Virus record (IMG/VR): IMGVR_UViG_3300020452_000006
Coordinates: 1 to 28,506 of that record
DNA: 28,506 nt
Strand: one strand, 5' to 3'
From: a virus
Made by a program: the position numbers and the translations under genes. This document shows, piece by piece, positions 376-19,924 of the stretch (the stretch's first letter is position 1; each line of letters opens with the position of its first letter). The notes beneath the pieces were generated by a model, which did not search any database, had not been told where the DNA came from, and saw nothing but the letters and a program-made list of their open reading frames with translations.

Positions 376-519
376 ACACTATATAATAGAAATTGTTGAT
401 ATTTAGTTTACTGTTTAATATATTTTTATATATTTGCTTAGTTTTTTGGTTTCAGTTAGTTGTTAAGCCCTCCGCTACCTTTCTATTATCTTGTCGTAAT
501 ACTTTAAGCGGGGGGTTTT
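376..519. other. Noncoding spacer between large terminase and tail chaperone
   Basis: This 144-bp gap is the longest late-region gap without a convincing gene. It contains late element 1 (380-409) and a GC-rich hairpin (468-515), with AT-rich DNA between them. Because it directly follows the terminase genes it is a reasonable place for a packaging or other cis-acting site, but nothing in the sequence proves that. An open + frame runs through it into antisense terminase DNA; it has no family features and I do not regard it as a gene. Confidence 0.5.
380..409 (-). promoter_or_regulatory. Late element 1 (tail operon)
   Basis: Read on the minus strand, TTCTATTATATA is exact at 391-380. The upstream box at 409-400 matches CAAATAAATA at 8 of 10 positions, with the standard 8-base spacing. 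The element ends 4 nt before the ATG at 375. The 17 bases directly before this ATG are identical to those before the ATG at 15686. Probably a phage late promoter, or else a translation-linked leader element; the very short distance to the ATG would imply a nearly leaderless transcript. Confidence 0.6.
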
Positions 520-521
520 TT
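468..521 (+). terminator. Terminator-like GC hairpin, + orientation
   Basis: CCCTCCGC at 468-475 pairs with GCGGGGGG at 508-515, eight pairs including one G-U in + strand RNA, across a 32-nt loop, followed by six T at 516-521. The T-run lies only in the + direction, although no + strand gene exists. In the minus direction the stem has one C-A mismatch and no T-run. It may stop antisense transcription, fold at the 3' end of the terminase message, or belong to a packaging site. The long loop lowers confidence. Confidence 0.35.
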
Positions 522-1722
522 ATTGCACAAAATACCTACCTGCATTTGGATTATCTAAGTGATAGATTACATTATAACGGATTCCATCAATAGCATGGTT
601 ATATGAATCTACATATAGTTTAGATGATTTGTCGCTGTATATATAATTGTTCAGCTCTTTTGCTATGTTAGTTGATTCAGGCGTTATTACTAGCTCAAAG
701 TCTTGCATTCTAGTTATGCCACTTTCAATAGTTCCTTTTTTTACTGGTTTAATGTTTACTCCTAAATGCTTTAAATCGGCAATTAGTCTTGGTTCGCTGC
801 TATCTGCGATAATCAACATATTCCCAACTTTGTCTAATATAATCTGTGCAAGTTCTTGTGATTTTAAACCATTCTTATATATATGCTCTTTTAAATATAT
901 CTTTTGTTTCTTCTTGCAAATGGCAATTTGTGTGAGACTGTCAGGATCAACAGAAAAGCCAAAGTCCATTCCACAAGAAGTCTGTAAGCCATCAGGATTA
1001 AATTCTCCTATACTCCAGTTAGTAAATACCACACCATCTGCTCTGTCTAGCCACCCCCCTAAGATTTTATGCTGATACTTTTTAAAGTTCCTATGCTTTA
1101 TAGTCTTAATACGCTCTAGGAAGCTCTGTGAGAGGTTTTCTTTATTGTCTAGGTATGTACTATGGATATAACATACATTGTCTCTAACGCCATTAAAACC
1201 CGCTTCTACACCTTTGTCCTCAAAGAATCTTTTGTATATCCAATGCTCTTTAGTTACTGGATTTAATATAAGTATTATTCTATTCTGTATATTCTTTTCT
1301 CTAATACTAAGGTCTATGGTGTCAAATATATCTTCATCAATAAGTTCTTCTGCTTCATCTAATACCCAACAACTTATTCCTTGTAATGACTTTAGACTTG
1401 CAGTTTGATTTCCTGCTGATGTCTTGATCCCTCTAAATAGTATATCTGATTGATTGCCTAAGTTTACAACCTCAGCTTTATTTACACTAAAGATGTTTTC
1501 AAATCCTAACAGCCCTATCTTTTCTAAGAACTCAGGGATGATTGATAAGTGAGCTGATACCATTGTAAATCTTGTAAACAATACTCTGATACCTTCAGCC
1601 ATTGTAAGCAAAGTTAAAAAGACTGTAACTGCAAAAGACTTACCACTTCCCCTTCCGCCTGTTATTATAAAATAACGAGCATCAGAATTAAAAAGAGGAT
1701 TGTATTTCTTATTCAGATTCAG
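520..1722 (-). CDS. terL: Terminase large subunit (packaging ATPase and nuclease)
   Basis: Drives DNA into proheads and cuts the concatemer. Reading from the CTG at 1722 (400 aa): Walker A GGRGSGKS at 22-29, Walker B WVLDEAEE with D122/E123, and an RNase H-like nuclease with acidic residues D253 (GMDFG), D307 (IIADSSEP) and D379 (HAIDGIRY). These mark an intact enzyme of slightly short, normal length. Its start is odd: between the in-frame TAG (1728-1726) and the Walker A there is no ATG, GTG or TTG. Only CTG codons at 1722 and 1716 are available, or a +1 frameshift from the small-subunit gene, which overlaps it by 14 nt. A start at the TTG at 1611 would delete the Walker A motif and cannot be right. 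Confidence 0.93.
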   Translation of the reverse strand: MNLNKKYNPLFNSDARYFIITGGRGSGKSFAVTVFLTLLTMAEGIRVLFTRFTMVSAHLSIIPEFLEKIGLLGFENIFSVNKAEVVNLGNQSDILFRGIKTSAGNQTASLKSLQGISCWVLDEAEELIDEDIFDTIDLSIREKNIQNRIILILNPVTKEHWIYKRFFEDKGVEAGFNGVRDNVCYIHSTYLDNKENLSQSFLERIKTIKHRNFKKYQHKILGGWLDRADGVVFTNWSIGEFNPDGLQTSCGMDFGFSVDPDSLTQIAICKKKQKIYLKEHIYKNGLKSQELAQIILDKVGNMLIIADSSEPRLIADLKHLGVNIKPVKKGTIESGITRMQDFELVITPESTNIAKELNNYIYSDKSSKLYVDSYNHAIDGIRYNVIYHLDNPNAGRYFVQ

Positions 1723-1978
1723 TTTCTACAAAGTTTATTAGTGGCATATTAATGCTTTCATCATTTGAAGTAACATCTACCCTTTGCTGAGGTTTGCCAT
1801 AAAAGTATTCAAAGAACAGCTTAACTGCCCATTGTTCTTTTTTATCAATACCCTGTTCTAAGGACTTTAACGCCTTTTCATTCATTGGCGTTAGGTTCTC
1901 TATTAATCTTTGTTCATCTGCTTTACTCTTGCGCCCTGCGCCCTTTCTAGCCCCTCCGTTGTTTATTCGTTTATCCAT
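1709..1978 (-). CDS. terS: Terminase small subunit, probable
   Basis: An 89-aa basic protein beginning MDKRINNGGARKGAGRKSK. The GARKGAGRKSK stretch is the usual N-terminus of phage small terminase and related DNA-binding proteins, which recognise the packaging site and hand DNA to the large subunit. It lies directly upstream of and overlapping terL. I chose the ATG at 1978. An in-frame TTG at 2002 adds eight residues and lies 5 nt after late element 3, the spacing seen at other late genes, so that start remains possible. The last codons overlap the terL reading frame. Confidence 0.75.
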   Translation of the reverse strand: MDKRINNGGARKGAGRKSKADEQRLIENLTPMNEKALKSLEQGIDKKEQWAVKLFFEYFYGKPQQRVDVTSNDESINMPLINFVETESE

Positions 1979-2007
1979 AATTGAAATAGATTGATTATTC
2001 AATCCTA

Positions 2008-2037
2008 TATATAATAGAAATTACTCGTATTCATTTG
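2008..2037 (-). promoter_or_regulatory. Late element 3 (terminase unit)
   Basis: On the minus strand the upstream box CAAATGAATA (2037-2028, 9 of 10 to consensus) is followed after 8 bases by an exact TTCTATTATATA (2019-2008). It overlaps the last codons of the upstream NinB-like gene and precedes terS (TTG at 2002, ATG at 1978). It is the boundary between the early operon and the late genes. Confidence 0.6.
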
Positions 2038-2404
2038 GCAGCATTAATCTTACACCTAGTTCTGTTAATGCCCATATCCTTATTTGTTCTGCATAAATCT
2101 CAAATTCTTTTGTGTTCATTCTTGCTGTACTGTTTACTGTTTGCAATCCTATCTGTTTGTCGTTTATCTCTATGCTTTGCCATTCACTAGCAAACTTTAC
2201 TTTAAGAGTATCGTGCATTTCATCAGGAAAGTAGCCAAGTGATTCTCCTAATGGCTGGACTATACAAGCCCAATAGTAATTGTTTTGCATATTGCTTCTA
2301 TTGTTTCTTTGCTTTTTTACTTTAACTATATAATCTGTTTCAAGTTCTTTTAGATAATTAAAAAGAGTTTGCTTATCTTGACTGGTATTAATTACGAAGT
2401 TCAT
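2021..2404 (-). CDS. NinB-like recombination protein, probable
   Basis: A 127-aa protein with the pattern RSNMQNNYYWA near residues 36-46, then GYFPDEMHDTLKVKF and a C-terminal segment ending WALTELGVRLMLPNEYE. This resembles the lambda NinB (Orf) family, which binds single-stranded DNA and helps load recombinases, and related phage proteins. It is the last early gene and follows the PKD-domain gene with a 17-bp overlap. A NinG-like gene occurs in the same operon, as in lambda. The family match is from memory of sequence pattern only. Confidence 0.55.
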   Translation of the reverse strand: MNFVINTSQDKQTLFNYLKELETDYIVKVKKQRNNRSNMQNNYYWACIVQPLGESLGYFPDEMHDTLKVKFASEWQSIEINDKQIGLQTVNSTARMNTKEFEIYAEQIRIWALTELGVRLMLPNEYE

Positions 2405-2834
2405 AGTATAGTTTTCTGTTCTTAATATACATCATGTTTTTGGGTGCTTCTAACAGCTCTATTCCTTGTAAGTTATATATCTTGTTTTTTATAGTCTTTC
2501 TTATTTCGTTTACATAAGCAATATTGTAAGGGCATATAGTGTCTTGCTTCACTGCTGTGCATAATAATATGTTAGTAGTTGAATCATAAAAGTTAGTAGT
2601 CAAAGTTGCTATATGTATTCCTTGACCATAATTATGTTCTATTGTTTGGTATGCTAAAGCTATTGGATTGTGTATTCCAATAAATGTAGTATCTGATCCA
2701 TCTCCAAAATCTATGTGATGTTCTGTATAATAATGACTTTGATTAATAGAGCTATAAGGAGCTATGAAAGTCTTACCGCCACCAGTCGTACATATCCAAT
2801 TTGTCAAGCATAATAGTAATAGTAATGTTTTCAT
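2388..2834 (-). CDS. Secreted PKD-domain protein with a T9SS-like C-terminus
   Basis: A 148-aa protein of unknown role. It starts with a lysine and a leucine-rich run (MKTLLLLLCLTNWIC), a plausible signal peptide. Residues 40-80 carry a PKD-like pattern: HIDFGDGS (40-47), NP, IEHNYG and GIHIATLT. The last 30 residues (KIYNLQGIE, then MYIKNRKLYY) resemble the end of type A sorting domains used by the Bacteroidota type IX secretion system. The start overlaps the upstream stop as TAATG. If correct, the phage exports a protein to the surface of infected cells during the early phase, possibly for exclusion or adhesion. The domain calls are by eye; the gene itself is well supported by coupling. Confidence 0.6.
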   Translation of the reverse strand: MKTLLLLLCLTNWICTTGGGKTFIAPYSSINQSHYYTEHHIDFGDGSDTTFIGIHNPIALAYQTIEHNYGQGIHIATLTTNFYDSTTNILLCTAVKQDTICPYNIAYVNEIRKTIKNKIYNLQGIELLEAPKNMMYIKNRKLYYELRN

Positions 2835-3091
2835 TAGTCAAATTTTTCGTTAATACCTCTTTCTCCTACAAGCTTTTCTTTAGCACCCGCCCATAGTTTA
2901 TCATGTCTTTTCTCTTTGCTTAAAGACTCTTCTGTTCTTTTAAGGCTTGGCATTCCTTCTTCTGGTTCGCTTTCCATATATAGACCGCAATCACAAAGAG
3001 CTTGAATACAAACCCACTTGCCATCTCTAAGACCAATAGTCTGCTTTCTTATTTCCTTCTCCTTGCCACATTTACATTTGTATAGTGACAT
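2834..3091 (-). CDS. Small zinc-ribbon protein of unknown function
   Basis: An 85-aa protein with CKCGK at 6-10 and CDCG at 33-36, two cysteine pairs that could bind one zinc ion. A charged, probably helical C-terminus follows (EGMPSLKRTEESLSKEKR, then GERGINEKFD). No enzyme motif is visible. It ends in a TAATG overlap with the PKD-protein gene, so the two are translationally coupled. I recognise the general pattern from other Bacteroidota phages but know no assigned function. Confidence 0.65.
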   Translation of the reverse strand: MSLYKCKCGKEKEIRKQTIGLRDGKWVCIQALCDCGLYMESEPEEGMPSLKRTEESLSKEKRHDKLWAGAKEKLVGERGINEKFD

Positions 3092-3092
3092 A

Positions 3093-3323
3093 TTAATCTA
3101 TTAATTTAAGATTCCTGCCTTCTTCTTTAGCTATCCTCATAATTGTCTTTACTAATTTTTTTCTTTCTAGGTTTGTTTCACACCATATAAAATCAATATC
3201 ATTCATTCCTTCTAATTTTAATTGTATTCCAAATCTAGTCCCTTTGTTTTCAGTTTCTTTATAGCCATATTTTTTGACTACCTGCTTCCAGGTTACCAAC
3301 TGTATTGTTTCTGTATTTTTCAT
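3093..3323 (-). CDS. Hypothetical early protein, 76 aa
   Basis: Not recognised. The protein is charged, mixed alpha/beta in appearance (IQLKLEGMNDIDFIWCE, then a basic helix LERKKLVKTIMRIAKEEGR) and has no signal peptide or membrane segment. Its ATG overlaps the upstream stop as ATGA, and the next gene starts 1 nt after its stop, so it belongs to the tightly packed early operon. Confidence 0.6.
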   Translation of the reverse strand: MKNTETIQLVTWKQVVKKYGYKETENKGTRFGIQLKLEGMNDIDFIWCETNLERKKLVKTIMRIAKEEGRNLKLID

Positions 3324-3583
3324 GTTGCAAGTCCTCCTGTTATAGTTTCACTCTTTTGATATAACTTTTCTAACTCAAAATGTAAATGATTAATTGCTTT
3401 CTGTATATCTTGCTCAGCAGGGTTGCCTTCTTTCTTTCCTGCCCTTAATAGATATGTTACAGCCGTTCCGCAATTATAGCTTAAATCAAAATCAGCTACT
3501 ACATTCTTTGCTGTATATCCATGCAGCTTTCCTAAATAATAACTAGGCTCAGGAGTCTTTTTGTAATCTTCTTTCTTTGTCAT
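3320..3583 (-). CDS. DUF3310-family protein
   Basis: An 87-aa protein. The central SYNCGTAVTYLLRAGKK (about 35-51), followed by DIQKAINHLHFELEKL (59-74), is the signature of DUF3310, a small domain found in many phages and in some described as nucleotide kinase-like. It probably acts in nucleotide metabolism during replication, but the activity is not shown by sequence. The start lies inside the end of the previous gene (35-bp overlap) and the stop overlaps the next ATG as ATGA. Confidence 0.75.
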   Translation of the reverse strand: MTKKEDYKKTPEPSYYLGKLHGYTAKNVVADFDLSYNCGTAVTYLLRAGKKEGNPAEQDIQKAINHLHFELEKLYQKSETITGGLAT

Positions 3584-3764
3584 TTTCTAAAATTTTTATT
3601 AATCCATCTTGGGTGTTTAATGTTCTAGGTCTTTTAAACTTGCGATATTCTTCAGGATTGAATATTAGCTTGACCTCTCTTACTAATTCATTGTCATCAT
3701 ATTTAACTATCCATCTACTTTGATAGTGATACTTGTTTCTCTTTAAGTGTGCTAAGTAACTCAT
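3549..3764 (-). CDS. Hypothetical basic early protein, 71 aa
   Basis: Not recognised. It is rich in lysine, arginine and tyrosine (MSYLAHLKRNKYHYQSRW), suggesting nucleic-acid contact, with no membrane segment. The ATG overlaps the stop of the zinc-binding gene upstream as ATGA, and the 3' end overlaps the DUF3310 gene by 35 bp. Coupling on both sides supports translation. Confidence 0.55.
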   Translation of the reverse strand: MSYLAHLKRNKYHYQSRWIVKYDDNELVREVKLIFNPEEYRKFKRPRTLNTQDGLIKILENDKERRLQKDS

Positions 3765-4177
3765 TCGCTGTATTTTTTATATAGTTTCTTTATTGCATCA
3801 AAGCAAGTTGATATACATGATCCGCAATTTGTAGTAGGAGAATAATTAGTCATGTGTATTGTGTTGTATGTTTCTATCATTCTTTTTTTAGCTTGAACAT
3901 CTTTTGCTCTGCCTGTCTTTAAGTCTGTCCACATGTCTATTATTTCATCTATTATCTCTTGCGGCAAGTCATCAGGCGTTTGTACTTCAGTTGTTTTATC
4001 CCAATACTTCTGAGGACAAGCCATTGGTGCTAGTCTTGCTTTTACTTTCATAAAACATAAGCACCGCTTACAAGTTCCTGTTGGTTTAAAATAGTAAACA
4101 CATTCTTTACATATTGCTATCCGATCTTCATAAACTTCATCAGGAACAAAAAACTTATTAATAGTTCCTCCTGTCAT
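3761..4177 (-). CDS. Cysteine-rich zinc-binding early protein, unknown function
   Basis: A 138-aa protein. The N-terminal half holds CKECVYYF, then TGTCKRCLCFM and MACPQKYW: six or more cysteines spaced like a zinc ribbon or treble clef. A second small cluster, NCGSCISTC, lies near the C-terminus. Such proteins are frequent in flavobacterial phage early regions without a known role. The ATG at 4177 is preferred over a TTG at 4195, which would add six residues. The stop overlaps the next ATG as ATGA. Confidence 0.65.
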   Translation of the reverse strand: MTGGTINKFFVPDEVYEDRIAICKECVYYFKPTGTCKRCLCFMKVKARLAPMACPQKYWDKTTEVQTPDDLPQEIIDEIIDMWTDLKTGRAKDVQAKKRMIETYNTIHMTNYSPTTNCGSCISTCFDAIKKLYKKYSE

Positions 4178-4235
4178 CTGGGTGTTTAAAACCAAACTGC
4201 ATTACAAAACTATTGTTTTTTATTGGATCATACAT
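4158..4235 (-). CDS. Possible 25-codon microORF
   Basis: An ATG at 4235, inside the last codons of the sigma-like gene, opens a 25-codon frame ending with TAA at 4160-4158, inside the next gene. It would encode a mostly hydrophilic peptide beginning MYDPIKNNSFVMQFGF. It bridges the 50-bp gap between two genes and could work as a translated linker for reinitiation. There is no independent evidence that the peptide has a function. Confidence 0.25.
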   Translation of the reverse strand: MYDPIKNNSFVMQFGFKHPDDRRNY

Positions 4236-4809
4236 CTTCATTTAATTTCTTTTTAATTATGGTTCTTACTTTATCTATTGTTGTAAAAAGACTATTGCGG
4301 CTTATCTTAGTCTTAGCAGCTAGGCTGTCTAAGGTTTCTCCAGAATAGTATAATTTAAACAATTCTCTATCATACCAACTGTCAAGTTTGTCTAACTCTT
4401 TATCTATTAACTCTAATTTGATTAGCTTATGATTGTCTACTTCTTCATTTGGAATATTTGAAAGGCTTTTATGATAATTATTAACAGTGGATAAATCATA
4501 CTCATGATGAGTAGGAGTAGAAATGTAATTAAAATTGTCAATGTGTGTGTAATATTTTTCATATTTATAATAAAAATTACTTCTTTTACTTGTTAATGCT
4601 CTTCTTAATGCCACAGCACCATATCTTGTTATTCCATCAATTCCATCTTTTTTATAAATACTCCTAAGTGTTTCAGGATTCATTTGTAGAAAATAAAGCA
4701 TCAGCTCTTGTACTGCTTCATTTATTTTGTTTTCATCTGTTGTTAATCCATAAGCCATTGTCCTGAACTTATCTGTTAGCTTAGATATTTCAATATAAAT
4801 GTCAGTCAT
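4228..4809 (-). CDS. Sigma-factor-like DNA-binding protein
   Basis: A 193-aa protein. The C-terminus (146-189) reads YDRELFKLYYSGETLDSLAA followed by KISRNSLFTTIDKVRTIIKK, the layout of a sigma-70 region 4 helix-turn-helix. The N-terminal half has a helical block with AVQELMLYFL, reminiscent of region 2 but weak. It is among the last genes before the terminases. I infer a transcription regulator or minimal alternative sigma that could direct host RNA polymerase to the five late elements. Region 2 promoter-melting residues are not obvious, so a plain DNA-binding regulator is the alternative. The ATG overlaps the upstream gene by 8 bp. Confidence 0.55.
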   Translation of the reverse strand: MTDIYIEISKLTDKFRTMAYGLTTDENKINEAVQELMLYFLQMNPETLRSIYKKDGIDGITRYGAVALRRALTSKRSNFYYKYEKYYTHIDNFNYISTPTHHEYDLSTVNNYHKSLSNIPNEEVDNHKLIKLELIDKELDKLDSWYDRELFKLYYSGETLDSLAAKTKISRNSLFTTIDKVRTIIKKKLNEDV

Positions 4810-5161
4810 TTTTTGGCTCTATTTTATCTAGCCTATCAATTACTTCTTGAAGCATCTGATCTAGCACGACCTTATAAGCTCTTACTACTGCTGAATTTGT
4901 TTTAGTTTCTATACCTGCAAAAAAACCATTAGTTGCAACAGATACATTAATAGGTATAATAGTTATCCAATCATAAAAGTTTCCATTTTCTCTTACTCCT
5001 TGACCATAGCCATTTGAGTATTCTATTATAACATCTATAACCTCTAGGTAGTTTCTGTATCTAGCTTGGGTTGTTACCTCTTGAACGAATTGCTTACACA
5101 TCATAACATAAACATCTACTATTGATTTGTGTTCTTCACTTGAATAGATCGGTTTGTGCAT
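4802..5161 (-). CDS. Hypothetical early protein, 119 aa
   Basis: Not recognised. The sequence suggests a soluble alpha/beta protein with a helical N-terminus (VYVMMCKQFVQEV), a central tyrosine- and glycine-rich segment (EYSNGYGQGVRENGNFYDW) and a helical C-terminus. There is no signal peptide, membrane segment or metal motif. It sits between the NinG-like and sigma-like genes and overlaps the latter by 8 bp. Confidence 0.6.
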   Translation of the reverse strand: MHKPIYSSEEHKSIVDVYVMMCKQFVQEVTTQARYRNYLEVIDVIIEYSNGYGQGVRENGNFYDWITIIPINVSVATNGFFAGIETKTNSAVVRAYKVVLDQMLQEVIDRLDKIEPKND

Positions 5162-5182
5162 ACGCCAAAGTTATAAAAAAAG

Positions 5183-5587
5183 TTACTCTATTCCCTTCTC
5201 TTTTTTTAAGTTTTTAACAGCCTCTTTGTAATAAGTTATCTTTTCTTCATAATCAGATCTAGTAAACTTCTGTATTTGTTTAGATTTGATTTGTAAATCT
5301 TCAGCAGTACCTTCTCCATATTTTGCATCTAATTCTTTGCCGAATTGATACTGTCTGCCCTGAGCAAAAAGATTATCTGCTGCTGACTGGGCTTGTACAT
5401 TAAGTTCTGACCATCTAGTTGATAGACATTTTCTTGACATAAAATGACCTGCATGAATATTTTTGTAGTGATAATACCTGCCCGAAGTGAAGCACTTGGT
5501 AAATCCTAATTCATCAGCATCTCTAAGCCTAATGTAAAGGCTAAACCATTTGTCTAGTTCTTTTTTAAGTTTACTAATTGACTTCAT
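5183..5587 (-). CDS. NinG-like recombination protein with degenerate zinc site
   Basis: A 134-aa protein resembling lambda NinG (Rap), a structure-specific nuclease family that acts on recombination intermediates. The HAGHF motif (45-49), the TRW motif (57-59) and the NV segment before DNLFAQG fit the family. Only one family cysteine (C32) remains: the partner position reads CFTSG, and the usual second pair (QCxxCN) reads QSAADN (67-72). Either the metal site has been replaced by another stabilising arrangement, as I believe is common in flavobacterial phage versions, or activity is altered. It follows the preceding gene with a 14-bp overlap. Confidence 0.65.
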   Translation of the reverse strand: MKSISKLKKELDKWFSLYIRLRDADELGFTKCFTSGRYYHYKNIHAGHFMSRKCLSTRWSELNVQAQSAADNLFAQGRQYQFGKELDAKYGEGTAEDLQIKSKQIQKFTRSDYEEKITYYKEAVKNLKKEKGIE

Positions 5588-5882
5588 ATCCTAAATCTCT
5601 TTTCCATTGATCTTGTATAATGCCTTTCCTAGCTCTATATGCCTTTCCTCTTAGATTAGGACATTCTTCTTGGAGCTTTCTTCTCATTCTTTCTATTGTC
5701 TTAATGTTAGTTAGTTTGTTATTAGCAAACATCTGCATGAACTCTAAGCCATTTATTTTGTTAGGATCAATATTCTTTTGCTTTAATTCACGCCACCAAT
5801 AAGCAGCAATCAGTAAGTTGTCACTATCTCTTAAATGCGGCTTAATTGTCAATAGTTCTTTTACAGTTTCTTTTGTTTTCAT
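5574..5882 (-). CDS. Conserved-looking early protein, 102 aa
   Basis: Function unknown. The protein is helical, with LLIAAYWWREL near residues 23-33 and a basic motif MRRKLQEECPNLRG in the second half, suggesting nucleic-acid binding. The ATG at 5882 overlaps the stop of a 19-codon membrane ORF as ATGA, which fixes the start; longer readings from 5930 or 6014 would run through that ORF in another frame. It overlaps the NinG-like gene by 14 bp. Confidence 0.65.
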   Translation of the reverse strand: MKTKETVKELLTIKPHLRDSDNLLIAAYWWRELKQKNIDPNKINGLEFMQMFANNKLTNIKTIERMRRKLQEECPNLRGKAYRARKGIIQDQWKRDLGYEVN

Positions 5883-8805: not shown

Positions 8806-8838
8806 TATCAACAACTTTATTTACAAAGTTATCAACAA
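8806..8838. promoter_or_regulatory. Possible operator: direct and inverted repeats over the early promoter
   Basis: TATCAACAA occurs at 8806-8814 and again at 8830-8838, 24 bp apart. Between them AACTTT (8813-8818) and AAAGTT (8825-8830) form an inverted repeat around six bases. The set overlaps the -7 box and likely start of the early promoter, a position suited to a repressor or initiator binding site. No regulator has been matched to it. Confidence 0.35.
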
Positions 8839-8853
8839 TTAAGGTGTTAGCAA
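8824..8853 (-). promoter_or_regulatory. Early promoter of Bacteroidota type
   Basis: On the minus strand a TTG at 8853-8851 is followed after 19 bases by TAACTTTG at 8831-8824. This matches the -33 (TTTG/TTG) and -7 (TAnnTTTG) boxes of the main Bacteroidota sigma factor with the accepted spacing. It is well placed to drive the leftward early operon starting at 8745. The rest of the 8776-8935 gap is AT-rich, with weak hairpins and no gene. Confidence 0.65.
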
Positions 8854-11183: not shown

Positions 11184-13205
11184 TTATCTTGGTGTTAAAA
11201 ATCCTTTATTCTTCATTCTTTTTGGTGGCTTTGCTACTAATGGGCTATTCTTTTCAGGTCTAAATCCTTCTGAAACCGCTTTAGTATATCCAATTAAATC
11301 AGCATCCTCTATCTTAGTTGTTCTTGATTCTCCTATTGTAGTCTTGTAAATTTGTCTAAGCCAAAAATGCTGACAATTGCCACCTCCTTTGTACTTTAGG
11401 ACATCATATTTTAAAGCACCTTTAGGCCCCCAACCTATATTTCTTTTTTGGTTTTTAGAATAGTAATAATCATTAACAACTTTGTCTGACATACTTACAA
11501 TATCTTCTTTTCTGTAAAGTTTCTTCGCACCCATCATTTGTCTGCAAAATGGTCTTTTCTCTCCTGTTTTATTTACTAAGAAGTTGTCTTGAGCATAGAC
11601 ATATCTTACTCTAAAATAGTCGTAAGTCTTTTTAGATACGCCATCTTGCTCAGACTTTTTGCTTGGCTTAGGACTTCCTGTTGAAGCAAACTCAACCCTC
11701 TCACTAGCAACATCATTTAGAACTTCTTCAAAATTAAAGTCAGCGTGTTCATCTACAACTTTTTCTTCATCTACAAGCTCCCATCCTTCAGGCATATCTT
11801 CTCCATACTCATCAATAAATTTAGCTAGTTCTGTTGCTGAAGAATGGTCTTTACAAGCCATATAAGCCGTTTTGCCCTCGTATTCGTGTTCGTGATACCC
11901 TTCGCACCCTAAAGTCTTAGCATGAGCTTCAGCTTCTTCTATTGTGTCAAATACTGGCTTCCCATCTATATTGCCTACTTTACTAAAATCTTCTCTAATT
12001 TCTACATCTAAAGGCTCAAGCCCTAATTCATCTCTTATTTCTTCTTCAGTCATTACTCCTTTCAAGTCCTCAGAAGTAAACTCTAAAGTAATTGGTTTAA
12101 GCTGAACAAAGTTTACAGGCATATCCATATCATTAACTTGGAAGATTTTTCTAAGCTGTTTTACTATATGATCTTGAAATGGCTTTACAACTGTATTTAA
12201 ATAAAAGTTCGCTGCTGAGTTAAGTTCATCTACATTAGAACCAAGTCCTGTGTCGTTCTTAATACCCATTAGCATAGGAGATGTAACTCTATGCCCTGAA
12301 AGTATGTTAGAAGTGAGGAGTTCTTGTAAGGCAATATATTGCTTATCAAGATCAGCAGGACTTATTGGAGTTACTTCAGGAGTTCTAGTCTTGTCATCTG
12401 AAAAAGTCAATACAAACTTTCCTGCATTATTTTGTCCTGTGAATTTTTCCGTTATGCTTTGTTCTATCTGAAATCTCTCCTCTTGCGTTGGTATGCCATT
12501 AGAAAAATTAATCATAAAACTACCTGAGAATCCTGAGCTGATATTATTTAAATGATACTCTGAGATACGACCATCTATAAGACTCCAATTTGAGCAAGAA
12601 ACCCAATCAGGTGTATAGTAAGAGTTCATATTAGGACTGTAAAGACCTGAATACATTATCTGATTTGCACAAGTTCTGTCATTAGTATTGAAAGCAGGAA
12701 CATAGTAAGGTTTATTCTGTCTAGTGTTACTCCAGTCTGCTGAGATGTAATATCCTTTAGTCTTGCCAAATTCATCAGGTCTGGCACACCTAACCTTAGA
12801 AACATCAACATGGTATATCTCTGCAATTTGTGTTCTGTCTTTAGACCAAACAATGTTAAGAGCAAAAGCACCTTGAAGCTTAAAGTCAAAAGCTAACTTC
12901 TTTATAACCTCATGTAGGCTTTCATTACCATTAGCTCTATTCATAAAGTTCTGAAGTTTTATTCTTGCTTCTTCATTTCTATCTTCTTCATTTTCTATTA
13001 TAAGATTCTCCCCTGCAATCATTTCAGCAGTCGCATTTACGATAGCAGCTGTTATTGAGCTTGAATAATATAAATCAATAATAAATTGTGGATATAGGTT
13101 ACGCCAATCCTCAGTACCAAACTCAATCCAATCTTTACCTCTCACTTCAGTTACTGTTGGAGATGTACTTGTTTCTAAATTAATATTAATGATGTTATCT
13201 TTCAT
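11184..13205 (-). CDS. Portal protein with C-terminal extension
   Basis: A 673-aa protein. Residues 1-400 have portal features: an N-terminal helical region, SSSITAAIVNATAEMIAGEN, FDFKLQGAFALNIVW, and a long wing and stem region ending near MTEEEIRDELGLEPL. The portal is the dodecameric gate for DNA at one capsid vertex. Residues 410-470 carry a small domain with CEGYHEHEYEGKTAYMACKD. Residues 535-635 form another domain (RPFCRQMMGAKKLYRKEDI, GGGNCQHFWLRQIYK) of the kind found in head morphogenesis proteins of flavobacterial phages. A single gene thus seems to join portal and minor-head functions. Its position late in the unit, after capsid and spike, is unusual. Confidence 0.8.
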   Translation of the reverse strand: MKDNIININLETSTSPTVTEVRGKDWIEFGTEDWRNLYPQFIIDLYYSSSITAAIVNATAEMIAGENLIIENEEDRNEEARIKLQNFMNRANGNESLHEVIKKLAFDFKLQGAFALNIVWSKDRTQIAEIYHVDVSKVRCARPDEFGKTKGYYISADWSNTRQNKPYYVPAFNTNDRTCANQIMYSGLYSPNMNSYYTPDWVSCSNWSLIDGRISEYHLNNISSGFSGSFMINFSNGIPTQEERFQIEQSITEKFTGQNNAGKFVLTFSDDKTRTPEVTPISPADLDKQYIALQELLTSNILSGHRVTSPMLMGIKNDTGLGSNVDELNSAANFYLNTVVKPFQDHIVKQLRKIFQVNDMDMPVNFVQLKPITLEFTSEDLKGVMTEEEIRDELGLEPLDVEIREDFSKVGNIDGKPVFDTIEEAEAHAKTLGCEGYHEHEYEGKTAYMACKDHSSATELAKFIDEYGEDMPEGWELVDEEKVVDEHADFNFEEVLNDVASERVEFASTGSPKPSKKSEQDGVSKKTYDYFRVRYVYAQDNFLVNKTGEKRPFCRQMMGAKKLYRKEDIVSMSDKVVNDYYYSKNQKRNIGWGPKGALKYDVLKYKGGGNCQHFWLRQIYKTTIGESRTTKIEDADLIGYTKAVSEGFRPEKNSPLVAKPPKRMKNKGFLTPR

Positions 13206-13555: not shown

Positions 13556-13556
13556 A

Positions 13557-14732
13557 TTAAGTAGTTAAAGCTAATAGTTGAGCATCTGTTAAAATTGTAT
13601 CATAAACTTGTAGCTGTCGTATTTTGCCATTAAAGTTCCAAGAGCTGGGACTTGCAGCATAGTACCCCCAGATATTACTAAAAGTACCTGTTGCTGTTGC
13701 AGTAGTTGTTGATGCGATAGCTTCCGTACCATTTATCCAAATTGCAGAATCTCCACTTTTATATTTAGCCGCTATTTTAAAAAAACCTGCTGGCTTTGTT
13801 TGAGGATTACTCCACCAAGAAGAAATTATTAGCCAAGATCCTCCAATCATTATGCTTAACCATAGTGATAATCCATTACTTGCCGACCCTATTGCTATCC
13901 AATTTGTACTGTCATCTCCAATTGAAATAACACTATCGGCAGCAACATTATCAGCACTTATTTCTAAAAATAAAACTCCCTCAGACGACCCCATTAAAGT
14001 AGACAATCCTGATTTGTAAAATGTAGTTAGATTTCTTGTAACTGTTGCTGCTGTTGTTGGAATGTAAGAAGTAGCATACGAACCTACTTCAACTTGTGAA
14101 CCAAATAATAGAAAATCGCCTAAAGACCCGCCACCAACTTGTTCTACACCTATTAAAGTTGTACCTGATGCAACTGTAAAATTAAAAGAAACTCTAGTCC
14201 ATGTAGAAGTGTTTACTTGTGAAATATAAGAAAAAGGCGCAACTATGTTTGCAAAAGTATTACCACTAAAAACCCCTACTTTCATTTCAGTAGCATTTAT
14301 ATTTTTTGCGTAAAATGAGCAAGTGTACTCTCCTGCTGCAACACTATAAAATGCATTCCAAGTTATCATATACCCACCTGCCGAAACTTCAAATTTGGTT
14401 GCATTATTAGTTCCATCAGGTGATGTTGCAGCATTTGCAGTAACTACTACATTAGAACTTGACCTGTTAGTTGTGTAATCATTACTGTAAATATTAATAT
14501 TAGTTCTTTGAGGCTCTACTAAAAGACTTGGACAACTACCATCTGAATAGTCAAGTTGAGGTTCGTTTACTGCAACAGATTCTATCACCCCTGCTGAGTC
14601 TACTCTTGTAGCAGTTGTAGCTCTTGTAATCTCTAAATCTGCTAAACCACTATCAGGCTTAATACTATAAAGAGTTCCTGCTTTACCTGCATTAGCAGTT
14701 GTAATTATTTTAGCATCATCTAATAATGTCAT
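13557..14732 (-). CDS. Lectin-like spike or fibre protein
   Basis: A 391-aa protein. The N-terminus has RATTATRVDSAG and CPSLLVEPQRTN, a motif found in many phage spike proteins. Residues 80-230 read as a carbohydrate-binding jelly roll (YTCSFYAKNINATEMKVGVF, WTRVSFNFTVASG). Residues 245-391 resemble a LamG/concanavalin-type domain (GFFKIAAKYKSGDSAIWING, then RQLQVYDTILTDAQLLAL). It probably binds host surface glycans from the capsid or tail. The start overlaps the stop of the 59-aa gene as ATGA. Confidence 0.75.
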   Translation of the reverse strand: MTLLDDAKIITTANAGKAGTLYSIKPDSGLADLEITRATTATRVDSAGVIESVAVNEPQLDYSDGSCPSLLVEPQRTNINIYSNDYTTNRSSSNVVVTANAATSPDGTNNATKFEVSAGGYMITWNAFYSVAAGEYTCSFYAKNINATEMKVGVFSGNTFANIVAPFSYISQVNTSTWTRVSFNFTVASGTTLIGVEQVGGGSLGDFLLFGSQVEVGSYATSYIPTTAATVTRNLTTFYKSGLSTLMGSSEGVLFLEISADNVAADSVISIGDDSTNWIAIGSASNGLSLWLSIMIGGSWLIISSWWSNPQTKPAGFFKIAAKYKSGDSAIWINGTEAIASTTTATATGTFSNIWGYYAASPSSWNFNGKIRQLQVYDTILTDAQLLALTT

Positions 14733-14908
14733 TCTATATTATTTATGAAGGTTAGTATATCAGTTAAACATGCTTCAGCTTCCGTAGTACCACCATCAGT
14801 TGAAACTCTATTTGTGAAGTCAGCAATCATGGTACCAATAGCTCCGCCACCACCACCACCACCTGCTTTGATGTTATTTAAACTTATGCCTAATTTAAGT
14901 GCTAACAT
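14729..14908 (-). CDS. Small glycine-run protein, 59 aa
   Basis: A short gene from the ATG at 14908 to the TGA at 14731-14729. The protein has a helical start (MLALKLGISLNNIKAG), a run of seven glycines and a C-terminal segment ending LTDILTFINNIE. It is coupled to the spike gene by ATGA and starts 3 nt after its upstream neighbour ends. The glycine run looks like a flexible joint of a small virion protein, perhaps an anchor for the spike. Confidence 0.6.
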   Translation of the reverse strand: MLALKLGISLNNIKAGGGGGGGAIGTMIADFTNRVSTDGGTTEAEACLTDILTFINNIE

Positions 14909-14911
14909 ATT

Positions 14912-15187
14912 CTATGTAGTAGCTCCTTCATGATAACCTATTCCAATTCCACTCGTAAGGGTAATTGCAGTTACATTCATAAACAAGGTTGTCCCTGCCG
15001 CTAAAGTCGTATGTAAAGCTGCTTCTCCAGTTGCATCAGCTACTGTAATTGAAGCTACTACACTTTCAACTGGGAAGTAGACACAGTACCAGTCTTTGCT
15101 AGTTTGTGCTGCTGTTGTAAAGATTTCAGTACCTCCGTTTTTACCTAATTGCTCTGTTAAGAGTTGTTGTACATTTTCTATTGCCAT
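14912..15187 (-). CDS. Small virion-like protein, 91 aa
   Basis: Not recognised by name. Alanine- and threonine-rich and beta-rich after a short N-terminal helix (IENVQQLLTEQLGKN). Composition and position among structural genes suggest a minor virion or capsid-decorating protein. The start is preceded by an A-rich run without Shine-Dalgarno, as for the major capsid gene. Confidence 0.55.
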   Translation of the reverse strand: MAIENVQQLLTEQLGKNGGTEIFTTAAQTSKDWYCVYFPVESVVASITVADATGEAALHTTLAAGTTLFMNVTAITLTSGIGIGYHEGATT

Positions 15188-15197
15188 TTTTTTTTAT

Positions 15198-15686
15198 TTA
15201 TTGTCCGTAATATATATAATTTGTTCCACTAGGCTCTTGCCTTTGTGTGTATTGTACTTGTGCCGTTCCTGCCTTGTCTGCTACATACATCTTACCTTTG
15301 GTTACTAACCCTTGCACTATACCTTTAGTTGCAGCAGGAGGGCTTAAAACATCATTCTCGGTTGCAGGTGCATTTCCTAAAGATATTGTTACAGCACCTA
15401 CCCAACTTACTTCATAAGCCTCATACTTCCAATATCCTGATGGAGATAAGTCTACTGAGCCTGCATATAAATCAGCAGTTGCCGCAGCATCATAATCTAC
15501 TTCAAATTTAGTGTATCTGTTTTTAATAACTTCTGCCGTTCCATATACATAATGAATTGACTTATCCATGTCATTAGTAAACTTTAGCAAATGCCTTATA
15601 TGACTTGAAGAAACTGAAGTGTTGATCCTATTATCTTCCGTTTGAATATAAAAAGTAAAGTCAGTTTCTGTAATTGCTTGTATCAT
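15198..15686 (-). CDS. Minor virion protein, 162 aa
   Basis: A beta-rich protein. MIQAITETDFTFYIQTEDNR and IRHLLKFTNDMDKSIHYVYG in the first half and SGYWKYEAYEVSWVG in the second resemble small structural proteins of Bacteroidota phages. It is the first gene of the spike, portal and lysis unit. Its ATG follows late element 2 by 4 nt, and the capsid/tube unit is closed by a terminator just upstream, so its transcription must start afresh here. Confidence 0.6.
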   Translation of the reverse strand: MIQAITETDFTFYIQTEDNRINTSVSSSHIRHLLKFTNDMDKSIHYVYGTAEVIKNRYTKFEVDYDAAATADLYAGSVDLSPSGYWKYEAYEVSWVGAVTISLGNAPATENDVLSPPAATKGIVQGLVTKGKMYVADKAGTAQVQYTQRQEPSGTNYIYYGQ

Positions 15687-15690
15687 ACAC

Positions 15691-15720
15691 TATATAATAG
15701 AAAAAGTCATTATTTATTTG
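15691..15720 (-). promoter_or_regulatory. Late element 2 (spike, portal and lysis unit)
   Basis: On the minus strand an exact CAAATAAATA (15720-15711), then 8 bases, then an exact TTCTATTATATA (15702-15691), ending 4 nt before the ATG at 15686. It follows an intrinsic terminator at 15727-15755 by a few bases. The terminator-element-gene order is the strongest local argument that the element is a promoter. Confidence 0.7.
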
Positions 15721-15726
15721 GTATAT

Positions 15727-15755
15727 AAAAGAAAAGAGTAGTATTAAACTACTCT
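15727..15755 (-). terminator. Intrinsic terminator after the tail-tube gene
   Basis: AGAGTAGT (minus strand 15755-15748) pairs with ACTACTCT (15742-15735), a perfect 8-bp stem with a 5-base loop, followed on the minus strand by TTTCTTTT. It lies 30 bp after the stop of the 187-aa gene and closes the scaffold-capsid-tube unit. Confidence 0.8.
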
Positions 15756-15785
15756 CCTCTCAGAAATATATATGAAAACTACTAA

Positions 15786-16349
15786 TTAAGATGTTACAAT
15801 AGTACCCATTGTGAATCCTGCATTATCAAATGGCTCTGTTGTATAATCCGCAACCATTGGGAAAGGTAAAGCCTCCATACCATCAAAGGTAAGTGTATAT
15901 CCATTTCTATCCCCCCAAGCAGCACCACTATCCATAGTACCTGCATTAAGTTCCATTCCGTTAGTTGTTCCTAATCCAACGATCACATCATGTCCGTTTG
16001 TTAGTTGTTGATTTAATTGAGCAAATACAATGGTCTTTGTAGCACCTAATAATTTTATTTGATTTTGATCTTCTTTTGTGAGTTTGTTTAAGATAATATT
16101 ACAACTTGGAGTGTAATAAATCGTACCATTCTCACGAGAACCAACGATTGTATCTGTAAGACTCGCAACACCTAAAGGCATTGTGTACCTATATAATACA
16201 TTTGATCCCATTTCTATATCAGTAATTTCTCCTGATGTTTGAGGTATGGAGGTTACTTGATCATATACAGCAAAATAAATAAATTTAATTCCACCACTAA
16301 TCCTATTACAATCTAACCCCCTACCTTTAGTTAATATTCCACAAGCCAT
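15786..16349 (-). CDS. Probable major tail tube protein
   Basis: A 187-aa protein starting MACGILTKGRGLDCNRISGG, an N-terminus I associate with tail proteins of flavobacterial phages. Then come NVLYRYTMPLG, a hydrophilic middle (IILNKLTKEDQNQIKLLGA) and GHDVIVGLGTTNGMELNAGT. Its size suits a siphovirus tube protein. It lies alone between two intrinsic terminators, directly after the capsid gene, as expected for a highly expressed structural protein. The alternative is a capsid decoration protein; no experimental family name can be confirmed from sequence alone. Confidence 0.55.
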   Translation of the reverse strand: MACGILTKGRGLDCNRISGGIKFIYFAVYDQVTSIPQTSGEITDIEMGSNVLYRYTMPLGVASLTDTIVGSRENGTIYYTPSCNIILNKLTKEDQNQIKLLGATKTIVFAQLNQQLTNGHDVIVGLGTTNGMELNAGTMDSGAAWGDRNGYTLTFDGMEALPFPMVADYTTEPFDNAGFTMGTIVTS

Positions 16350-16370
16350 GTTTTTATTGTTTTAAAAGTT

Positions 16371-16396
16371 AAAAAGAGGGGGTTTTTACGCCCCCT
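16371..16396 (-). terminator. Intrinsic terminator after the major capsid gene
   Basis: AGGGGG (minus strand 16396-16391) pairs with CCCCCT (16382-16377) across an 8-base loop, followed on the minus strand by CTTTTT. It lies 12 bp beyond the capsid stop codon. Some read-through must occur, because the tube gene downstream has no late element of its own; the hairpin may also protect the 3' end of the capsid message. Confidence 0.8.
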
Positions 16397-16407
16397 ACTT
16401 TGTGTTA

Positions 16408-17316
16408 TTACGATTGTCTTACGATGTCAGCTCCAGTTCCTGACTGAACACCTGCTGAATAACGAGCAACCAATCTCATGTTGTCTGATCCATCTAAAGC
16501 AGCCATGTCCATCAAAGTAATTCTAGTCGCATCTGATAACAAGTCAGTTCCAAAGAACAAGTTTGACTTCTGAGCTATTACAATTTCATTTGTAGTCATT
16601 CCGTTACAAACAGCTATTTTGTAGCCTTCAAACATTGGCTTATAATCTCCATTCATATTGTAAGCATTAACATATCCTAAAGTAGATACTGCTGAAATAT
16701 ATGCTTGGTAAGTTGTTTGGTTCATGTATATATGTAAATCTTCTTTACCTAATACATTAGCTGGTATAGCTTGAACTGCTCCTTGTAAGTTAGCAATAAT
16801 GTTTCCTGGTACATAAGCACCTGTTGCTGCATCTTGAACAACTGTTGCATCAACTGCTGGTAATAATAAACCAGTTACAGCGCCATTAAATCCATTGAAT
16901 TTCCCTGCAACAGCAGTTCCATCCCAGATTGAATTTTCAGTTGCTTCTGCAATAATTTCCCCCATGTAAGATATTACATAGTCATCAAAAGAAGCTGGTG
17001 GAGGTGCGCCTGCACCTGCTCTCATTTGTAACGCTTCCCAAGAATCTAGTAAAGTTGACTTACAAAGGTCTAGGTTAATTTGTAGATTTTTAGGTTCTAA
17101 TACTTTCTCTGTTAAAGCAAGAGTACCTGCTGAAGTAAAATCACAAGTTGCATCTGCTACTGCTGAAACTGTGTTATTCATAGCCTGTATGTTACTTTTG
17201 TATTTGATATTCTCTATCATTGTTAGATAATCTAACGAGTTTGAAGCTTTTAGTGCAGCACTGATGTAAAAACCAGCGGCTTTCCCTGCAAAGTTTGATG
17301 TTGTAGTAAACGCCAT
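16408..17316 (-). CDS. Major capsid protein
   Basis: A 302-aa protein of HK97-like appearance: an N-terminal helical arm, DYLTMIENIKYKSNIQAMNN, the segment EPKNLQINLDLCKSTLLDSW, a helical FDDYVISYMGEIIAEATENS, and beta strands toward the C-terminus (DLHIYMNQTTYQAYISAVST, MFEGYKIAVCNGM). It directly follows the scaffold gene and the protease group. A strongly A-rich leader precedes the ATG and an intrinsic terminator follows, both fitting high expression. No separate maturation cleavage site is obvious. Confidence 0.85.
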   Translation of the reverse strand: MAFTTTSNFAGKAAGFYISAALKASNSLDYLTMIENIKYKSNIQAMNNTVSAVADATCDFTSAGTLALTEKVLEPKNLQINLDLCKSTLLDSWEALQMRAGAGAPPPASFDDYVISYMGEIIAEATENSIWDGTAVAGKFNGFNGAVTGLLLPAVDATVVQDAATGAYVPGNIIANLQGAVQAIPANVLGKEDLHIYMNQTTYQAYISAVSTLGYVNAYNMNGDYKPMFEGYKIAVCNGMTTNEIVIAQKSNLFFGTDLLSDATRITLMDMAALDGSDNMRLVARYSAGVQSGTGADIVRQS

Positions 17317-17339
17317 TTTTTTTTATTTATTTGTTATTA

Positions 17340-18032
17340 TTATTTATTTAAATTGTATAAGAACTTCTCCTGACTTGTCATTCTTCTAAAATCCTGTGCA
17401 GTAGGAGTTGGTCTTTCTGAGCTAAATTTATTTGTGTTAATCGGTGCATCAGCAGGACTTTCTGCCAATTCCGTTTTAAGTTTTTCGTTCTCAGCTTTTA
17501 GTTTTTCTAATTCATCTTCTGCTGAAAATTCAACTACTTCTTTAGTAGTTATAGTTTTAGGATTTTTAGATGGCTCAGTTACTTCTTCAGCCATTTCTTC
17601 TACATCTCCTGTTTCTCCTATTTGTTTTTTAAGATCACTAACCGCATCTTCTAAGTTCTTGATTCTTTTCTCCATTCCTTCCCAATCATCAACTGATGCT
17701 TCATCATCATCTTCTCCTCTATCTTCTCCCATTTCTTCAACTTCTTCAGATGCTTCAACCTCTTCTTCTGTTTCTGACTCCATAACTTCAGATACCACAC
17801 CTTCTTCTTCAACTCTGAAAGAAACTCCCTCAGCAGTCTTGTAAGTGCCAATAGGTAAAGGTATTGTTGTACCATCTTCAGTAAGGACTGATATGTCCAC
17901 GCCTGATTCTAATTCTTCAGCAGTAGAAACAAAGATTGTGCCATCTTCTGACTTTGCTTGCCAAGCTAATTTAATTTCATCTTCGGCTTTGTTTAAGCCA
18001 AGTGCTACTAATATTTGTTCTTTAATGTCCAT
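17340..18032 (-). CDS. Capsid scaffolding protein
   Basis: A 230-aa protein. The middle (about 75-155) is extremely acidic with Glu/Asp runs, followed by coiled-coil segments (MEKRIKNLEDAVSDLKKQIG; LEKLKAENEKLKTELAES) and a C-terminus with basic residues (AQDFRRMTSQEKFLYNLNK) suited to bind the capsid shell from inside. This is the usual form of a removable scaffold, placed directly before the capsid gene. The N-terminal 70 residues form a small beta-rich domain. The acidic core makes long antisense open frames on the + strand, which are not genes. Confidence 0.75.
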   Translation of the reverse strand: MDIKEQILVALGLNKAEDEIKLAWQAKSEDGTIFVSTAEELESGVDISVLTEDGTTIPLPIGTYKTAEGVSFRVEEEGVVSEVMESETEEEVEASEEVEEMGEDRGEDDDEASVDDWEGMEKRIKNLEDAVSDLKKQIGETGDVEEMAEEVTEPSKNPKTITTKEVVEFSAEDELEKLKAENEKLKTELAESPADAPINTNKFSSERPTPTAQDFRRMTSQEKFLYNLNK

Positions 18033-18044
18033 AGGTTCTTTTTT

Positions 18045-18074
18045 AATATAATAGAATAGTTATTTATTTATTTG
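18045..18074 (-). promoter_or_regulatory. Late element 4 (scaffold and capsid unit)
   Basis: On the minus strand an exact CAAATAAATA (18074-18065), 8 bases, then TTCTATTATATT (18056-18045, 11 of 12), ending 12 nt before the ATG at 18032. It is the copy with the longest leader, AAAAAGAACCT, before the scaffold gene. Confidence 0.65.
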
Positions 18075-18083
18075 ATTTTTAGG

Positions 18084-18476
18084 TTATTTTACTTTCATTT
18101 TACTATATATTGCTTTCATCATTGATAAATCTTTTTCAGATATTTCTAAAAGACTTTGTGTTGTATCTTCTTGCAATTTTTTAGGCAAATCTATACCTAA
18201 TTCTTTTGCTTGTTTTTGTATGTCACGCAACATAGGTGCTGCCTTACTTAATATTTTAACTGATTTTTCTGCATCTGTAATAGCAATAGATAAAAAACCT
18301 TTAGAAGCGTCCATTGAATCAACATATTTTACATAAGCATTACCACCCTGTTCTCTTAACTTTTTGTAATCATCAACTAATCCTAACTCAACCTTTTCTG
18401 CTTTTAGTTGAGTTTTCTGATTTTCTTTTACAAGCTTATTTAAAGCACTTAGTATTTGTTGTGGTGTTGGTTTCAT
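18084..18476 (-). CDS. Coiled-coil protein of the protease group, 130 aa
   Basis: Function unknown; helical throughout. It contains KVELGLVDDYKKL (about 28-40) and KQAKELGIDLPKKL (about 89-102). Both motifs recur in the same order in the C-terminal parts of the two preceding gene products (18485-19375 and 19377-19892). It therefore looks like a free-standing copy of a scaffold-like module attached to the protease. Probably acts in prohead assembly. Confidence 0.6.
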   Translation of the reverse strand: MKPTPQQILSALNKLVKENQKTQLKAEKVELGLVDDYKKLREQGGNAYVKYVDSMDASKGFLSIAITDAEKSVKILSKAAPMLRDIQKQAKELGIDLPKKLQEDTTQSLLEISEKDLSMMKAIYSKMKVK

Positions 18477-18484
18477 ATTATTTA

Positions 18485-19375
18485 TTATAATTGTGAAATA
18501 ATTTTTTGAATTTGTTTTGCTATATTTGAAGCATCTTTTGCACCCATTTCTGCTTCATTTAGTCTTGTTTTAAATAAATTTTGTATATCAGAAGATACAC
18601 CTAATTCCTTAACTCTTTTTACTCCTTCTGCTGCAACTCTTGCAGCTTTCTCATAATTACCTACTGCTGCAACAGCAGTTTCTTCTGCTTTAAATAATCC
18701 AACCTCTATATTGCCAAAATCACTCATAGCTTTATCAAGAGGCTTGTTTATATCATCAATTAAAGCCAACTCAACTTTCTGAACACTTAACAATTCTTTT
18801 AGTGCAGTTCTTATTTCTTCTGTTGTAAATTCTTTCTTATTCATTTGTTCAAATTTATTAGCAAAATACCCCTCAATTGAAAGCCCCTTCAAAGTTCCAT
18901 CTTTTATCTTATTCCATAAGTCATCATTCTCAATCTTCATTTTAACGAACCAAGTTCCGTTAGGCAAGTCGTAGCCATACATTTTAGACTTATCATTATC
19001 TCCTTCTTTAATCCAAGATTCTACTGTTAAAACTCCTGACACTCTATCTTGGTGTTCGTAAGTTGCTTTATGATGATTGTTATGTTTTAAATATAATTCT
19101 GCTGCACGAGCTACTGTCGCTTTTGAAAAGAAAACATAATACTCACTATCTGTGTTAGGATCATATCTAAAGATTTGCTTGTTAGGTATTAAAGCAGGAC
19201 TAACTAGCATACGTTTTTCTTCATCTACCTTAGCGAAAGTCAAGTTGTTTTTCTCTTTACCAAAGAAAACAAAATCTTGCTCTATTGCAGGTGAATTTAC
19301 TAGCGATATTGCATCAATAGCTAGTTCTTCGCTATCATCTGCTATTACTAATTCTACTATTTTAGTTTCTTTCAT
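18485..19375 (-). CDS. XkdF-like prohead protease with coiled-coil tail
   Basis: A 296-aa protein. Residues 1-175 match the XkdF-type serine protease pattern: LVSPALIPNKQIFRYD, YYVFFSKATVARAAELYL, TYEHQ with candidate catalytic H108, TVESWIKEGDNDKSKMYGYD, TWFVKMKIENDDLW and GLSIEGYF with candidate nucleophile S166. It would digest the scaffold during capsid maturation. Residues 190-296 form a helical domain with KVELALIDD and VKELGV, shared with both neighbouring genes, probably a built-in scaffold segment. It follows the cysteine-rich gene with a 1-nt gap. Confidence 0.8.
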   Translation of the reverse strand: MKETKIVELVIADDSEELAIDAISLVNSPAIEQDFVFFGKEKNNLTFAKVDEEKRMLVSPALIPNKQIFRYDPNTDSEYYVFFSKATVARAAELYLKHNNHHKATYEHQDRVSGVLTVESWIKEGDNDKSKMYGYDLPNGTWFVKMKIENDDLWNKIKDGTLKGLSIEGYFANKFEQMNKKEFTTEEIRTALKELLSVQKVELALIDDINKPLDKAMSDFGNIEVGLFKAEETAVAAVGNYEKAARVAAEGVKRVKELGVSSDIQNLFKTRLNEAEMGAKDASNIAKQIQKIISQL

Positions 19376-19376
19376 A

Positions 19377-19892
19377 TTATCTAATTGCAGGGTATTTTAA
19401 CATATTTATTTCTCTTGACAAATCTTTATTAGATTCTTCTAAAACTGCAACACCTTTTATGTCATTTACTTTTACTCCTAATTCTTTTGCAGCAGTTGTA
19501 GCATCTTTAACTCTATTGTTATTAAAAGATATTTGCTTTTCTATTTCATCAGTTTCAGTTCTTGTTTTTTCCCATAAATCATTATAAGATTTGAAAGCTT
19601 TTTCTATTTTTTCAACTAATTTTTTAGATTTTTTAACAAGCCCCTCACTTTTCTTAGCTGCTTTGTCTAAATCTTGCGCTAAACCAAAATCAAATCTTTT
19701 AGTTGCACTTAAATTATATTCTTTTAATTCTTTTTCGTATTCTTCATACGTTTTACCTAAAGGTGTTGGATATTGTTTCATTTCACTATATTTTTTTGGA
19801 TTAGCTTTTTCACAAGATTCTTTGGAGTCGTATTTACACTCTCCTGTATTACCCCACTTGTATTTTCCATCTTTACATTGTTTACACGGCAT
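19377..19892 (-). CDS. Cysteine-rich N-terminus plus coiled-coil protein, 171 aa
   Basis: The first 30 residues hold four cysteines in a pattern suited to bind zinc (CKQCKDGKYKWG, GECKYDSKESCEKANP). A linker rich in Tyr, Lys and Glu follows. The rest is coiled coil with RFDFGLAQDLDKA and AKELGVKVND, the module seen in the protease C-terminus and in the 130-aa protein. Probably an assembly factor of the prohead; position before the protease gene supports this. It is the first gene of its unit, 2 nt after late element 5. Confidence 0.6.
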   Translation of the reverse strand: MPCKQCKDGKYKWGNTGECKYDSKESCEKANPKKYSEMKQYPTPLGKTYEEYEKELKEYNLSATKRFDFGLAQDLDKAAKKSEGLVKKSKKLVEKIEKAFKSYNDLWEKTRTETDEIEKQISFNNNRVKDATTAAKELGVKVNDIKGVAVLEESNKDLSREINMLKYPAIR

Positions 19893-19894
19893 AT

Positions 19895-19924
19895 TATATA
19901 ATAGATTTAATTAATATTTATTTG
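19895..19924 (-). promoter_or_regulatory. Late element 5 (protease unit)
   Basis: On the minus strand an exact CAAATAAATA (19924-19915), 8 bases, then ATCTATTATATA (19906-19895, 11 of 12), ending 2 nt before the ATG at 19892. It sits in the 36-bp gap after the tape measure gene. Confidence 0.65.

Follow-up and report, generated by a model that had tools for sequence, protein, structure and literature searches.

Five two-box elements as candidate late promoters of a marine flavobacterial-type siphophage, putatively read by a diverged phage-encoded ECF-like sigma factor

The recognised phage genes of the window (the whole 28.5-kb stretch of the virus record analysed here) lie on the minus strand and comprise the terminase genes (520-2002), recombination, replication and other early-type genes up to 8775, the portal (11184-13205), capsid (16408-17316) and protease (18485-19375) genes, and tail genes beyond the protease. 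Five copies of a two-box element, each with a spacer of 8 nt, occur on this same coding strand, raising the question of what they do and which protein, if any, reads them. We consider it quite probable that they serve as late promoters in a marine siphophage of flavobacterial type and that they are read by a diverged, ECF-like sigma factor encoded by the phage itself.

A sequence-only reading of this DNA had first pointed to the element, and a re-scan bore out its coordinates, strand, box identities and 8-nt spacing at all five sites. These are labelled P1 to P5 here as candidate late promoters, their promoter activity and late timing being what we infer. P1 (2008-2037, minus strand) precedes the genes for the small and large terminase subunits; P2 (380-409, minus) precedes g1 (375 to 1, continuing at 28504) and the tail genes; P3 (19895-19924, minus) stands before the gene at 19377-19892 and the head maturation protease gene; P4 (18045-18074, minus) before the gene at 17340-18032 and the major capsid gene; and P5 (15691-15720, minus) before the gene at 15198-15686 and the portal unit. 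Equally good matches at random sites, which would have spoken against a promoter, did not turn up in the window: the pattern with up to three mismatches matched five times, compared with a mean of 0.01 in 100 shuffles, and a matrix built from the five sites gave them 30.5-35.7 bits, the next best position scoring 14.2.

Relatives were then found among IMG/VR contigs through two proteins, namely the putative sigma factor encoded at 4228-4809 (373 relatives) and the capsid protein (561 relatives). For each protein 80 loci were scanned, with 85 motif matches in the sigma set and 159 in the capsid set; all were in the sense orientation, and the reversed controls gave 2 and 4 matches, respectively. 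A motif search in relatives had been proposed as the check on the late-gene assignment. When the window genes were projected onto these relatives, the motif preceded the five late gene families in 192 of 199 upstream regions (29/30 orthologous loci for P1, 16/16 for P2, 32/38 for P3, 49/49 for P4 and 66/66 for P5), versus 2 of 1782 for all other gene families, both at the protease start; these totals are summed over the per-gene table. Across 37 genomes (the window and 36 near-complete relatives), 180 sense and 2 antisense sites were detected, with zero in the reversed controls. Exactly five sites were present in 29 of the 37, and some relatives are without one or two of the five. The suggested division of the late genes into five units reappears in the relatives, as about five sites per genome at the same unit starts. 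The shuffled, reversed and antisense controls rule out chance or composition as the source of the elements. The two antisense sites, at position 2850 of G024 and position 24449 of G036, each lie about 225 bp from a P5-type site on the opposite strand.

An exact-pattern scan of the IMG/VR contigs matched at least 118 stretches. Of the 119 loci tested, made up of the matches listed and an additional contig of the group, 117 code for proteins belonging to this phage group; therefore, the motif is essentially group-specific. Confinement to one phage group, about five sense sites per genome, placement at the same unit starts and a sigma gene in the early operon together support the original proposal of a phage-specific late promoter, which is by far the likeliest explanation. 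One contig of the group, L402 (PBGL02000003.1, 29.0 kb), encodes a sigma protein 84% identical to that of the window and is binned in a metagenome-assembled genome labelled Euryarchaeota archaeon; it is most likely mis-binned. Scanning genome contigs with the sigma protein revealed no host prophage.

The refined consensus of the element reads CAAAYRAA-N11-TCTATTATATA. For 237 distinct sites, gathered via the exact core TCTATTATAT with the upstream box left free, it is C-AA(A/C)(T/C)(A/G)AA-N11-TCTATTATAT-A, and the second and third positions past the core show a preference for T and A, respectively; the core appears invariant because the sites were selected by it. The upstream AA(A/C)(T/C) box stands at a fixed distance in nearly all of these sites, and conservation is low in the 11-nt middle. 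Contacts with sigma regions 4 and 2 would be expected to give such a pair of boxes at constant spacing. At first, 53 antisense matches to TCTATTATAT appeared suspicious; the contexts listed are without the upstream box and are apparently coding sequence. Location at the boundaries of functional modules might also suggest that the elements are repeated boundary, packaging or recombination sites and not expression signals. Such sites would hardly be expected to be strictly sense, to keep a fixed place before the first gene of each unit, to leave their 11-nt middle unconserved and to number zero among the early genes, and we regard this explanation as highly improbable.

If the elements are late promoters, the next question is how the early genes are read. 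The sequence-only reading had noted a host -33/-7 promoter at 8824-8853, and this promoter, TTG-N19-TAACTTTG on the minus strand ahead of the early operon, is real: it fits the flavobacterial -33/-7 consensus (PMC6847099) and recurs at the same place in three close relatives, 46-48 nt before the first early gene in all four genomes. The late element does differ from it, as claimed, its downstream box being TCTATTATAT in the consensus as against TAnnTTTG in the host. Downstream of the 8824-8853 promoter, in the early operon, sits the gene at 4228-4809 (minus strand), whose 193-aa product is proposed as the reader of P1 to P5. No late motif was found before this gene in 78 loci. The protein is present in all 37 genomes, ten of which were picked via the capsid protein, so that its co-occurrence with the motif is not built into the selection there. 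Of the window proteins that were scanned, none was recognised as another sigma factor or as a polymerase.

Several lines of evidence point to a sigma factor. The NCBIfam sigma70-ECF profile TIGR02937 was matched by all 36 homologues tested, with a best E-value of 2e-8 and a value of 1e-4 for the window protein, at scores short of the curated 42.9-bit cut-off (the window protein scores 22 bits, and relatives reach at most 39.4). An AlphaFold model built from 36 sequences, of middling confidence (pLDDT 68, pTM 0.41), has a helical N-terminal part, joined by a linker of low confidence to a C-terminal part of four helices. Its closest solved structures are sigma factors, the best PDB match being Mtb SigL (probability 1.00, E = 4e-3); the individual domains align with SigL and their relative placement does not, in a model of pLDDT 68. 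Many of the matches to viral models that bear a name are phage sigma factors, and the ECF sigma of phage GAP52 is in the list. When the PDB was searched by sequence with the sigma profile, only weak matches to MraZ and TyrR came up.

A second, cultured case is provided by the Nonlabens phages P12024S and P12024L, whose terminase is 62% identical to that of the window and which carry, just upstream of the terminase genes, a diverged sigma-like gene of the same kind. Their own two-box element, AAACAAA-N13/14-CGTTAATA (also given as AAACAAA-N13/14-CGTTAAT(A)), is followed by an ATG 3-4 nt further on and occurs at six sites in each phage, all sense, with none in controls; a weaker seventh site can be read before the protease-scaffold gene of P12024S. 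As in the window, these near-leaderless elements precede terminase, portal and protease/capsid genes; the downstream boxes differ, however, being CGTTAATA in the Nonlabens phages and TCTATTATATA in the window. No published description of the P12024S/L promoters was found. The P12024-type proteins exceed the Pfam region-2 cut-off, and intermediates matching both profiles join their family to that of the window sigma; proteins from other terminase relatives score 24-39 bits against, or close to, TIGR02937. Among terminase relatives, P12024-type sigma genes accompany the AAACAAA-type element, window-type sigma genes accompany TCTATTATATA, and genomes with other sigma-like genes only have neither. 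This correspondence comprises two clades and not many independent events, so common descent alone could produce it. Many of the terminase relatives L414-L457 have additional diverged sigma-like genes close to those for the terminase, and neither known motif. A de novo search for late motifs in them, by one method that could hardly pick up even the P12024 motif and by a second confined to upstream boxes of the AAAY type, gave no convincing result.

These observations also bear on whether the host could read the late promoters by itself. A host holoenzyme, with its primary or an ECF sigma, might act together with some other phage activator; many small early phage genes are of unassigned function, and recognition of the boxes by the phage protein is likewise something that we infer. 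The downstream box nevertheless differs from the host -7 consensus TAnnTTTG, every motif-bearing genome has a sigma-like gene, and motif type tracks sigma type, making reliance on a host sigma unlikely. Recognition by the phage-encoded sigma factor is therefore the reading followed here.

Where transcription would start can be judged from the distance between the element and the start codon. The element had been said to end 2-12 nt before a start codon at every copy, and this holds for four of them, the distance to the ATG being 4, 4, 12 and 2 nt at 380, 15691, 18045 and 19895, respectively. For the fifth (2008-2037), the claim depended on a TTG at 2002, which is probably wrong. The terminase small subunit most likely starts instead at the ATG at 1978, giving a leader of about 29 nt, because in relatives with variant leaders the TTG frame runs into a stop and the later ATG is conserved. 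Between P1 and this ATG, at 1989-2004 (minus strand), lies a conserved inverted repeat, GATTGA-ATAA-TCAATC or TTGATTAATCAA. It recurs at this position in 16 relatives and might serve as an operator, for example in terminase autoregulation, or form an RNA hairpin.

Across relatives, between 2 and 33 nt separate the end of the motif from the ATG, and the two-box geometry stays constant. A given gene can be near-leaderless in one phage and have a distance of 13-20 nt in another. Measured from the upstream box, AAAY to ATG is never below 31 nt, and it is 31-35 nt in 54 of 99 distinct sites; in P12024S/L, the coordinates give 32-33 nt from AAAC. A -33/-35 element begins about 31-35 nt from +1, and the ATG is therefore expected at or next to +1 in those sites. 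The next in-frame Met occurs at codon 38-70, so no start other than the first ATG is plausible for these proteins. Sites with longer leaders show a preference for purines 3 and 5 nt past the motif, plausibly marking the start site. Several late mRNAs should thus be leaderless, and the earlier description of the transcripts as almost leaderless can be kept, as a geometric argument, for three of the five sites and not for all.

The same distances bear on the suggestion that the element could be a translation initiation signal placed just ahead of the start codon. Flavobacteria are without Shine-Dalgarno sites, and at many sites the element ends 2-5 nt from the ATG. Against this, the distance to the start codon varies from 2 to 33 nt within the same gene family around a constant two-box geometry; moreover, the element is present only at the first gene of a unit and absent before the remaining highly expressed late genes, the capsid gene among them, and a translational role would leave two boxes at constant spacing unexplained. 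We regard the suggestion as highly improbable.

With the phage sigma factor as reader of the late promoters, the simplest scheme would run from the host sigma, through an early operon containing the phage sigma, to five late units. Host RNA polymerase with its primary sigma would start at the -33/-7 promoter (8824-8853) and transcribe the early operon, yielding the diverged ECF-like sigma (4228-4809), which would steer host core polymerase to CAAAYRAA-N11-TCTATTATATA and so start the terminase, tail, protease, capsid and portal units. Transcription would begin a few nucleotides past the downstream box; at three of the five promoters, the start would fall on or next to the ATG and give leaderless or nearly leaderless mRNAs. 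A terminator had been noted directly ahead of one copy, and indeed a terminator-like hairpin (15729-15761, minus strand; -19.3 kcal/mol, z = -4.9) followed by a U-run lies between the capsid unit and P5, where it would separate the capsid unit from the portal unit.

Phages with their own sigma factors for late genes are a known kind, two examples being 7-11, whose promoter is bipartite, and phiEco32, whose promoter is a single element (PMC8948821). Salmonella phage 7-11 (SaPh711_gp47) offers the closer parallel: a phage sigma, a bipartite late promoter (GTAAtg-16-aCTA) in several copies before late genes (PMC8948821), and early genes read by the host sigma. The consensus and the host phylum are different, however, and the leaderless mRNAs predicted for the window go unmentioned in that account (PMC8948821); the 7-11 case is defined by start-site mapping and in vitro initiation, and the window system would operate in the same manner. 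The gp36 protein of Escherichia phage phiEco32 similarly directs host core polymerase, there to middle and late genes, but it is without homology to region 4, and its single element, tAATGTAtA, has no upstream box such as the window sites possess (PMC8948821). Flavobacterial sigma-A promoters (TTTG / TAnnTTTG; PMC6847099, PMC9723704) share with the late element two boxes at a similar distance, and the phage early operon uses one, yet the late element matches neither box. Host messages, moreover, mostly have leaders: leaderless messages make up 5.5% in F. psychrophilum (PMC9723704), and 87% of the predicted transcripts of F. johnsoniae have leaders longer than 10 nt (PMC6847099). No description of Bacteroidetes-phage promoters of this kind was found in the open-licence literature; the family, the consensus and the leaderless geometry appear to be new.

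The analysis outlines how a large group of uncultured ocean phages would programme their transcription, with both regulator and sites named, and the cultured P12024S/L are a ready system for a direct test. A broader proposal, to which we give about even chances, is that marine Bacteroidetes phages harbour a diversifying lineage of sigma factors which has co-evolved with late promoters of its own, of at least two consensus types, in which +1 is the start codon, leaderless mRNAs being normal for many late virion genes where they are rare in the hosts. If leaderless late mRNAs hold, they bear on how such messages are translated in bacteria that are without Shine-Dalgarno sites and rarely make leaderless messages. 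Pairs of sigma and promoter could also serve as orthogonal expression parts for flavobacteria.

Two further repeats were observed in the window. Between P2 and the terminase gene, the segment 465-520 contains a GC-rich inverted repeat (CCCTCCGCT...AGCGGGGGG) and, after it, a T-run on the plus strand, where no gene was recognised. In addition, positions 1-170 and 28337-28506 form a 170-bp direct repeat of 97% identity, with 5 differences, which suggests that the genome is circularly permuted or concatemeric and that mixed strains went into its assembly.
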